Shown here in pieces: positions 1 through 2,687 of a stretch of DNA of 32,593 nucleotides. Under the pieces are notes generated by a model. The model was not told where the DNA came from. It did no database searches and was given only the letters and a program-made list of their open reading frames with translations. The position numbers were made by a program, and so were the translations under genes. The stretch spans positions 1-32,593 of the forward strand of contig JAHCBA010000055.1 in assembly GCA_019634625.1 (NCBI GenBank), in the 5' to 3' direction. Each line of letters opens with the position of its first letter. The first letter of the stretch is position 1. The stretch is from Verrucomicrobiia bacterium. Lineage in GTDB: Bacteria > Verrucomicrobiota > Verrucomicrobiia > Limisphaerales > CAIMTB01.

Positions 1-128
1 CGGTGGAGGATGTTGAGGAGCTTGTGCTTGCCAGAATCGTCGAGGAGAGGGAGGCGGCCGGCGACGCGGGACATGCAGTGATAGACCGCCGGGAGTGTGG
101 GGTCGGCTGTGATGCGTGGGGTTCTCAT
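1..128 (-). CDS. REP-associated (Y1/IS200-like) transposase, N-terminal part, cut by window edge
   Basis: Reading leftwards from an ATG at 128, the first 42 residues begin MRTPRITADPTLPAVYHCMS and continue with a basic SRVAGR stretch. The YHxxSRxxxR pattern opens the Y1 tyrosine transposase domain of REP-associated tyrosine transposases (RAYTs), which cut single-stranded DNA at palindromic REP sequences through one tyrosine. The HUH motif and catalytic tyrosine would lie outside the window, so integrity is unknown. It sits about 90 bp behind a second, broken copy in the same orientation. The REP-like motifs between the two copies (191-238) fit the usual pairing of a RAYT with its own repeats. 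The family assignment rests on a short stretch only. Confidence 0.6.
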   Translation of the reverse strand, partial: MRTPRITADPTLPAVYHCMSRVAGRLPLLDDSGKHKLLNILH

Positions 129-593: not shown

Positions 594-2381
594 TCAGGGC
601 GAAGGGGATCCAGGGTCGAGTGTGAGGGCGTACTCGAGGGAATCGACCAGGGCCTGGAGGCTGGCGGTGACGATGTTGGTGTCCACGCCGACGGTGCCCC
701 AGTCGCGCTGCCCGTTGGTGGCCTCGATGAGGACCCGGGTTCGGGCCGCGGTGCCGCGGACTTGTTCCAGATACTGGGCGGATACCTCAGTGGTCTGCCT
801 GGCGGCCGCCATGACCTTCTTGCCAAGTCGGCTGCGGTCGTCGGCCCATGCCTTCTCGGTATCCATGGTCGATCGACGGGCTTCATCGATGCTTTGGGTC
901 GTGTAGGGATCGGCATCGAGGATGCGGACCTTGTAGTCGATGAGGCGGACGGACTTGAGCTGGGGGAAGGGCTCGAGGAGGGCCTTGCGGAGGGCGTTGT
1001 CGAGCGCGTTCACGGGGCCGTCTCCTTCGGCGACGGTGTGGTAGAAGGCGCCCTTGCCGACGCGGACTTTGACGGTGGCCTCGCAGATGCCGTGCCGGGA
1101 GGGTGCGGTGTCCGGGGTTGCGGACGGGTCCTGGATGCCGGGGGGGTGAAGGGACTGCATCCGCATCGAGACGTGGTAGGACTCGACGGTGAAGAAGAGT
1201 TCGGGGTTGTGTTCGAGGACGCCGCGGATGAGGAGGGCGAGGGAGGCTTCGGCGGCCTCGTATTCGTAGCCCTGGGCTTCGAGGGTCTTGACCTTTCCGG
1301 TGATGGTGCGGGTTTCGGGGGCGTCGGGGGCGAGTTGAAAGCCGAGTTCCGCGGCTTTCAGGAGGATGTTGGTGCGGCCGGACATGTCGCTGACAAGGAC
1401 GCGGCGGTGATTGCCGACGGCTTCGGGAACGATGTGTTCGTAGCTGCGGGCGACGCGGTCGATGGCATGGACGTGCATGCCGCCCTTGTGGGCGAAGGCG
1501 GTGGCACCGACCCACGGTTGTCGGGTGTCGTGGCGGACGTTGGCGATTTCGTCCACGAACTCGGAGAGTTCCTTGAGTTTGGGGAGGGAATCGGGCGGGA
1601 CGGCGAGGCGGCCCATCTTGAGGTGAAGGGTGGGAATGACGCTGATGAGGTTGCAGTTCCCGGTGCGTTCGCCGTAGCCGTTGATGGTGCCCTGGACCTG
1701 GAGGGCGCCGGCTTCGACGGCGGCGATGGCGTTGGCAACGCCGAAGCCGCAGTCGTTGTGGGTATGGATGCCGACGGGGCAGGGGAGGGATTCGCGGGCG
1801 AGGGCGGTGATGCGGGCGATCTCGGTGGGAAGGCGGCCGCCATTGGTGTCACAGAGAACGACGCCGGCGGCGCCGGCCTGGGCGGCGGCCTTCCAGGTGG
1901 CGAGGGCGTATTCGGGTTCGTCGGCGTATCCGTCGAAGCTGTGTTCCGCGTCGTAGAGGACCATTTTTCCATGGTCCTTCAGGTAGCGGATGGTATCGGC
2001 GATCATGGCGAGGTTCTCGTCGGGTTGGGCGCGAAGGACCTCGGTGACATGGAGGAGCCAGGTTTTACCGACGATGGTGACCACCGGGGTTTCGGCTTCC
2101 AGGATCTGGCGCATGAGGGGATCGGCTTCGACGGCGAGCCCTTTGCGGCGGGTCATGCTGAAGGCGGCAATGCGGGCGGTGCGCCACGAGCGGCGGGCGG
2201 CCTGTTGGAAGAACTCCATGTCCTTGGGGTTCGATCCCGGCCAGCCGCCTTCGATGTAATGGATGCCGAAGAGATCGAGACGCTCGGCGATGCGGAGTTT
2301 GTCGGTGACCGAGAAGTTGATGCCTTCGGCCTGGGCGCCGTCACGGAGGGTGGTGTCGTAGATCTCGACAGTGGGGTTCAT
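594..2381 (-). CDS. cimA: (R)-citramalate synthase (595 aa)
   Basis: This enzyme condenses pyruvate and acetyl-CoA to citramalate, the entry to threonine-independent isoleucine synthesis, in the cytoplasm. The HMGL-like TIM barrel begins with EIYDTTLRDGAQAEG, contains the metal-binding HTHNDCGFGVANA, and continues through NGYGERTGNCNL and HKGGMHVHAI, the signature order of CimA rather than LeuA. The C-terminal LeuA-type allosteric domain follows (from about residue 420), ending WGTVGVDTNIV-SLQALVDSLEY. Between DYKVRIL (to 488) and GTAARTRVLIE (from 543) lie about 54 charged, helix-prone residues that I do not expect in this family, which explains a length 50-60 residues above usual. No clear Shine-Dalgarno precedes the ATG. 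The gene stands alone, with a structured leader upstream and a transposase remnant behind it. Confidence 0.93.
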   Translation of the reverse strand: MNPTVEIYDTTLRDGAQAEGINFSVTDKLRIAERLDLFGIHYIEGGWPGSNPKDMEFFQQAARRSWRTARIAAFSMTRRKGLAVEADPLMRQILEAETPVVTIVGKTWLLHVTEVLRAQPDENLAMIADTIRYLKDHGKMVLYDAEHSFDGYADEPEYALATWKAAAQAGAAGVVLCDTNGGRLPTEIARITALARESLPCPVGIHTHNDCGFGVANAIAAVEAGALQVQGTINGYGERTGNCNLISVIPTLHLKMGRLAVPPDSLPKLKELSEFVDEIANVRHDTRQPWVGATAFAHKGGMHVHAIDRVARSYEHIVPEAVGNHRRVLVSDMSGRTNILLKAAELGFQLAPDAPETRTITGKVKTLEAQGYEYEAAEASLALLIRGVLEHNPELFFTVESYHVSMRMQSLHPPGIQDPSATPDTAPSRHGICEATVKVRVGKGAFYHTVAEGDGPVNALDNALRKALLEPFPQLKSVRLIDYKVRILDADPYTTQSIDEARRSTMDTEKAWADDRSRLGKKVMAAARQTTEVSAQYLEQVRGTAARTRVLIEATNGQRDWGTVGVDTNIVTASLQALVDSLEYALTLDPGSPSP

Positions 2382-2421
2382 GGGGAGGGGTGTATGGGGA
2401 GATTCGGGGTTGGGAAGCGCG

Positions 2422-2452
2422 AAACCCCGTTCCGGGTCGCGGAACGGGGTTT
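2422..2452 (-). terminator. Perfect 12-bp hairpin in the cimA leader (possible attenuator)
   Basis: AAACCCCGTTCC and GGAACGGGGTTT form a perfect 12-bp stem around a 7-nt loop, 41 nt before the cimA start. The T tract after it is short in both directions (TTT on the minus strand, TTTT on the plus strand). It lies between the divergent starts of cimA and the DUF1549 gene, where a normal 3'-end terminator makes no sense, so a leader terminator is the better reading. Segments able to pair alternatively lie upstream in the leader. Confidence 0.5.
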
Positions 2453-2468
2453 TCGGGGGAAAACGCGT

Positions 2469-2594
2469 TCAGCGAACCGGCGTGACGGGAATCATCGCGC
2501 TGATATCGGCGATGAGAATGGCGATGACAGGGATCGGGGTTCCGACGGGCGGGACGGGCGGGATGTCGAAGGTCGATGGGCGGAACGAGGTCAT
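2469..2594 (-). CDS. Candidate Ile/Val-rich leader peptide of cimA (41 aa)
   Basis: An ATG at 2594 opens a 41-codon frame that ends in TGA 17 nt before the hairpin stem. The peptide has 7 Ile, 5 Val and 1 Leu, concentrated near the end: PIPVIAILIADISAMIPV. Leader peptides rich in the end product of the operon are the classical sensors of ilv/leu attenuation, and cimA feeds isoleucine and can feed leucine. There is no Shine-Dalgarno; the frame could be longer at its 5' end (an ATG at 2684) or simply non-coding. The codons most likely to stall lie after, not before, the upstream pairing segment, which departs from the textbook arrangement. Confidence 0.35.
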   Translation of the reverse strand: MTSFRPSTFDIPPVPPVGTPIPVIAILIADISAMIPVTPVR

Positions 2595-2606
2595 CGCTGG
2601 GGACGG

Positions 2607-2634
2607 TTTATGGCACGCGAGGCCCCTGGGACAA
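2607..2634 (-). promoter_or_regulatory. Possible cimA promoter
   Basis: On the minus strand TTGTCC (2629-2634) and CATAAA (2607-2612) are spaced 16 bp, a weak sigma-70-like pair. Transcription from it would begin close to the ATG of the candidate leader peptide. The match is modest and has no independent support. Confidence 0.25.
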
Positions 2635-2687
2635 GCGCGGAATTGACGGGATGGGCGATTCCCTGCGATGCATGCAGCCGACATCCC

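Follow-up and report, generated by a model that had tools for sequence, protein, structure and literature searches.

The cimA gene of a Verrucomicrobiia bacterium of the order Limisphaerales is in all likelihood preceded by a ribosome-mediated, isoleucine-specific transcription attenuator that responds to charged tRNA-Ile; we put the probability of this reading at about 0.9. The reading is based on a comparison of the analyzed stretch of 32,593 nucleotides (the window) with related loci, which show a conserved isoleucine frame, two alternative helices that exclude each other, a geometry that allows a ribosome to choose between them and a constant link to cimA. A preliminary description of the window had proposed a leader-peptide attenuator with branched-chain codons in front of cimA, and the isoleucine frame, the helices and the linkage to cimA in relatives now support this proposal.

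Organization of the cimA leader region

Leader and gene are encoded on the minus strand, and the following features were assigned (window positions).

594-2381, minus strand: cimA, citramalate synthase, the gene that would be regulated (TIGR00977 equivalog, 663 bits against a cut-off of 450)
2422-2452, minus strand: predicted terminator hairpin AAACCCCGUUCCG CGACC CGGAACGGGGUUU, followed by a short U run (UUUCGCGCUUCC); -22.8 kcal/mol
2438-2454, minus strand: predicted antiterminator 3' strand GAAAACCCCGUUCCGCG, overlapping the 5' arm and loop of the terminator; antiterminator of -18.1 kcal/mol for the window, loop covarying with the last leader codon
2459-2474, minus strand: predicted antiterminator 5' strand CGCUGAACGCGUUUUC, which holds the leader stop codon; from the comparison of loci
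2490-2492, minus strand: ATT, the last Ile codon, codon -7 from the stop, predicted stall codon with more Ile upstream; from the codon profile, placed from the coordinates of ATGATTCCC
2469-2594, minus strand: leader ORF, 41 codons plus TGA, Ile-rich; Ile enrichment limited to its frame in 35 non-redundant loci
2629-2634, minus strand: -35-like box TTGTCC (in CTTGTCC), 40 nt before the leader ATG, with the best -10 candidate CATAAA 16 nt further; from box recurrence across loci

All measures given for the leader in the preliminary description were reproduced. The ORF runs from the ATG at 2594 to the TGA at 2471-2469, and its 41 codons encode the peptide MTSFRPSTFDIPPVPPVGTPIPVIAILIADISAMIPVTPVR with 7 Ile, 5 Val and 1 Leu. 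The stop codon is followed after 17 nt by a perfect 12-bp stem (AACCCCGUUCCG/CGGAACGGGGUU, 5-nt loop), which ends 41 nt before the cimA ATG at 2381. The gene on the other side of the leader (DUF1549/DUF1553, from about 2690 onward) is encoded divergently on the plus strand; this excludes that the hairpin terminates a co-directional gene located upstream.

No IlvA above the TIGR01127 cut-off of 379 was detected in the window's genus (five genomes, best 68 bits), and isoleucine synthesis there is therefore probably entered through cimA alone. In the window CimA, some 48 extra residues appear to interrupt the LeuA_dimer allosteric domain (residues ~490-539), since relatives align to residues 1-490 and 539-587 as adjoining stretches; this apparent insertion is partly common to genome G002. 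Downstream of cimA, two pieces resembling IS200/REP-associated transposases were seen by eye on the minus strand (window 1-127 and 219-422; MRTPRITADPTLPAVYHCMSRVAGRLP... and CIDLNPVRAGLV).

The element is conserved in front of cimA

The 25-nt hairpin core is present as a single copy in the 6.74 Mb genome and does not occur elsewhere at up to two mismatches, which rules out that the hairpin is a genome-wide repeat. RNA folding, which had been suggested as a check, was run on the region and gave z = -3.0. A covariance model, R1, was built from A1, an 11-sequence alignment taken 5' of cimA; the training sequences included the Ile region, which gives a slight bias, and most of the score comes from the hairpin. 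R1 gave strong matches in 46 of the 320 genomes searched from the order, a single one in each, and these fall into three families: the window's genus with all five of its genomes, family f7 with 40 and f33 with one. In a set of 384 genomes from the class, strong matches were confined to families f1 and f7, and none of the three weak, near-threshold matches found there outside the order adjoins cimA.

In all 45 loci that could be judged, the window included, cimA is the next gene after the R1 match, 7-65 nt downstream; one match, L124, was left out of this count since its contig stops short of the following gene. Apart from the window's genome, 44 genomes have kept the element 5' of cimA, with L124 at its contig end in addition. 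Relatives have kept both parts whose loss the preliminary description had named as speaking against an attenuator, the Ile codons and the stem, the latter with compensatory pairs. DNA similarity to these relatives is limited to about 53 nt between the leader stop codon and the terminator (BLASTN, centred on 2474-2422), and only the 3' hairpin and a short segment around the stop codon are kept as DNA. The Ile codons are thus kept as codons, with little conserved DNA around them.

Upstream of 64 additional cimA genes, almost all of them in other families of the order, there is no Ile frame with terminator, and the same scan found none at 29 cimA genes drawn from elsewhere in the phylum. Limisphaerales cimA loci without the attenuator (L005, L008, L013-L018, L022 and others) often contain two motifs immediately upstream of the ATG: TTTGCAA-N17-TAGAAAT, apparently a direct promoter, and a short CCGC..GCGG repeat. 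At L176 (minus strand), in another family of the class, a leader MMTESDIIIIGL* is located directly before cimA, followed by a GAACGG..CCGTTCCG..CGGAACG hairpin without a U run.

The leader is enriched in isoleucine codons in one frame

At codons -15 to -1 of 35 non-redundant loci, 122 of 525 codons in the leader frame are Ile codons (23%), versus 11 and 10 in the other two frames (2%) and 18 ± 4 in shuffles. Ile is found at codons -9, -8 and -7 in 16, 22 and 16 of the 35 loci and is nearly absent at -5 to -1; ATT is used 81 times and ATC 41 times. The peptides have lengths of 17-57 codons and sequences that differ by locus, and what they have in common are runs of Ile and a final codon matching the loop of the terminator. 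The non-Ile residues show no conservation, as would be the case for a leader whose role is to be read. An excess of synonymous changes, sought because it had been proposed as a test, was not seen over the codons of the whole leader in close pairs (synonymous to non-synonymous 26:80 in frame, versus 35:81 and 13:94 in the other frames).

The leader ORF abounds in codons for the amino acid in which the pathway ends, with frame-specific Ile enrichment ahead of a confirmed cimA. Ile and Val had both been suggested as the signal; the Ile part of this claim stood, but Val is not enriched in the leaders of relatives (35 loci). Judged by its codons, the signal read by the leader is isoleucine, the product of the pathway opened by cimA.

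Leu-rich leaders such as MRSALPNLLLPEALLLSGAVVGL and NLLLPEALLLSGAVVGL stand before the leuA genes of the window's genome and five relatives (loci L222-L227; genomes G000, G001-G004 and G010), together with a hairpin that is GC-rich and has a U run; these leaders are likely leucine attenuators. Leu at leuA and Ile at cimA in the same genomes provide an internal control of specificity.

A promoter-like box is located close to the leader start

The motif CTTG[TC]C occurs 22 times upstream of the leaders of the 35 loci, in 21 of them, where 3.4 occurrences are expected. In 16 of 20 measurable cases the box lies 34-41 nt before an in-frame ATG or GTG leader start, and in none for the other two frames. 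A consensus scan called no sigma-70 promoter in the window. With a -35 box at this distance, the transcript would begin with the leader ATG or only a few nt away from it, giving a leaderless or nearly leaderless mRNA. Such a start, indicated in the window by the box 40 nt before the ATG, would explain the missing Shine-Dalgarno sequence, which had been counted against an attenuator.

Terminator and antiterminator exclude each other

A predicted intrinsic terminator hairpin lies between the leader ORF and cimA. It is conserved with compensatory pairs, and two-sided compensatory changes of the kind sought were seen in 4 of 15 pairs. The conserved strand CGCUGAACGnGUUUUC (2474-2459, segment 2) overlaps the leader stop codon, with the UGA inside it, and pairs with GAAAACCCCGUUCCGCG (2454-2438) to form an alternative antiterminator that excludes the terminator. 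Three basal pairs of this helix form between the final codon of the leader and the loop of the terminator; 97 of 105 cells are paired in register, versus 0, 19, 49 and 34 when the pairs are slid, and the third basal pair occurs as three Watson-Crick types (C-G 19, U-A 6, A-U 3), these counts coming from related sequences and not from independent events. In L114 and L115 the terminator 3' arm is altered, and the segment pairing with GAACG is unaltered.

With a ribosome placed at the Ile codon, the modelled RNAs fold into the antiterminator in 33 of 35 loci; with one at the stop codon, they fold into the terminator in 35 of 35. The Ile peak at -9 to -7 and the overlap of segment 2 with the stop provide an arrangement in which stalling frees, and completion masks, the antiterminator strand. 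For the full RNA of the window with segment 2 free, the antiterminator is favoured in the model. At equilibrium most of the 35 models favour the terminator, so that the antiterminator must act kinetically, through timing. A conserved 1:2 pairing of the trp/his type, that is a protector or pause hairpin, was not found, segment 2 pairing upstream with a probability above 0.5 in 5 of 35 loci; an untranslated leader would consequently read through.

The U tract is good in family f7 and short in the window's genus. In the window only three U directly follow the stem (UUU CGCG CUUCC), and a consensus pattern scan called no terminator in the window; other genus members are similar. The short U tract, held against the attenuator in the preliminary description, stands as a true weakness for this genus.

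A conserved terminator or pause that acts without regulatory translation, insulating cimA or fixing its level, would leave the Ile-rich frame incidental. It would fit the finding that the hairpin and the stop-codon segment are the sole parts kept as DNA while the non-Ile residues are free to change. We consider it improbable, since Ile codons are enriched in a single frame only, and there only at -15 to -6, the antiterminator helix covaries, the divergent upstream gene of the window leaves nothing to terminate and leuA in the same genomes has Leu instead of Ile. Still less credible is a leader that acts as a functional small peptide, with the hairpin as its terminator and no role in cimA control: ORF, plausible promoter and following hairpin would make up a complete small gene, but peptides of such different length and sequence have little beyond Ile runs and a loop-matching last codon in common, and the element always precedes cimA.

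Another pairing scheme had been drawn from the words GTTCCG and CGGAAC at 2581, 2539, 2440 and 2429, which would pair as 1:2, 2:3 and 3:4, with Ile and Val both sensed. The words exist at these positions and are complementary, but those at 2581-2586 and 2539-2544 have no counterpart in relatives, Val is not enriched and the Ile codons would come after segment 2; the comparison refutes this scheme, and we give it next to no credence. The related objection that Ile codons after segment 2 and about 95 nt to segment 3 do not suit an attenuator also falls. Segment 2 in fact lies at the leader stop, a few nt from segment 3 and with Ile 7-9 codons before, so the classical stalling geometry fits. A direct RNA sensor (T-box or riboswitch) in place of a translated leader is equally hard to believe: T-boxes too place a terminator-bearing leader ahead of biosynthetic genes, but no Rfam family, T-box or other described leader reached the gathering score on the element or elsewhere in the window, and there is no conserved domain upstream of the leader stop codon.

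Proposed mechanism of the attenuator

For the preferred reading, the isoleucine attenuator, we infer that the leader is translated, that transcription terminates in vivo ahead of cimA and that the cimA leader responds to isoleucine. Translation is suggested indirectly by the frame-specific codons and by the promoter-like box at a set distance from the start. Transcription would begin with the leader ATG (2594) or a few nt upstream of it, and a ribosome would translate the ORF behind the RNA polymerase. When isoleucine is ample, the ribosome would reach the UGA at 2471-2469 and cover the antiterminator 5' strand that holds this stop. With that strand masked, segment 3 would pair with segment 4 as the terminator (2452-2422), and transcription would end before cimA. 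When Ile-tRNA is scarce, the ribosome would stall on the Ile codons 7-9 codons before the stop; the antiterminator (2474-2459 with 2454-2438) would then form first and block the terminator, and cimA would be transcribed.

Similar leaders are present in planctomycetes

Planctomycete-type cimA loci passed the same scan for an Ile frame with terminator in 11 of 29 cases, versus 0 in the reverse-complement control. A second model, R2, was built from nine planctomycete cimA loci and applied to four planctomycete genomes and 198 genomes of the class of G706, which yielded 23 loci, 22 of them before a cimA homologue. Planctomycete cimA loci with an Ile-rich frame whose TGA lies in CCTGAGG, which pairs with CCTCAGG of the following terminator, were seen among L199-L221 (except L203) and L081-L110. 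The remaining R2 match, L203 in planctomycete G707, precedes a leuA-like gene and has the leader MNNLLLTLGLLLLPS* with CCTCAGG..CCTGAGG..CCTCAGGGTTTTTTT. In one planctomycete locus Rfam gave an unrelated sRNA match.

These leaders resemble that of the window in the Ile-rich frame, the UGA within a strand that pairs with the following terminator (CCUGAGG with CCUCAGG) and the position directly before cimA; they differ in hairpin sequence and in having a long U tract, and shared descent is not established. With some reserve, we incline to describe the element of the window as a two-state attenuator on a leaderless mRNA, lacking a Shine-Dalgarno sequence and pause hairpin, with its stop codon inside the antiterminator stem and its last codon pairing with the terminator loop. 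It may belong to a wider set of leader attenuators in Planctomycetota and Verrucomicrobiota, with Ile at cimA and Leu at leuA, in which the cimA device possibly arose at least twice because the hairpins differ between the two phyla.

Comparison with known attenuators and implications

In the enterobacterial trp, his, leu and ilv attenuators the control codons lie few codons before the stop, a ribosome at the stop masks segment 2, and the RNA chooses between 2:3 and 3:4 pairing. The element of the window is predicted to agree with them in all three respects. It differs in lacking a conserved 1:2 pause or protector hairpin, in its probably leaderless start and in gene and phylum, and has no sequence relation to them.

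The ilvBNC leader of Corynebacterium glutamicum starts one nucleotide from the transcription start and encodes the peptide MTIIRLVVVTARRLP (PMC11857589). It shares with the window the branched-chain leader codons and the overlapping antiterminator and terminator, but it controls acetohydroxy acid synthase through Val, Leu and Ile codons, whereas the element of the window stands before cimA and has Ile as its only signal codon. Moreover, ilvBNC has three hairpins including an anti-antiterminator (PMC11857589), while no third hairpin is conserved for the window, and the stop codon inside the antiterminator is a feature of the window. Attenuators of leuA and ilvB were found in Actinobacteria by genome comparison, that of leuA involving a pseudoknot; like the window, they have a short ORF with runs of pathway codons and then a terminator, and the text of that work does not mention citramalate, Verrucomicrobia or Planctomycetes (PMC1262725).

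In the literature searched, whose coverage leaves out most subscription journals, no description was found of a cimA attenuator or of attenuation by leader peptides in Verrucomicrobiota or Planctomycetota. By its architecture, the putative cimA element belongs to one type with the attenuators of ilv, leu, trp and his, at a gene and in phyla for which this search gave no description.

As a covarying two-state switch the element is amenable to a laboratory reporter, and isoleucine and leucine genes can be annotated with the leader device as a simple marker. If the attenuator is real, it would mean that coupled transcription and translation serve amino-acid sensing in phyla with little known gene regulation. 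Since cimA is seemingly the only route to isoleucine in the window's genus, the attenuator would be the main control point of isoleucine synthesis there.
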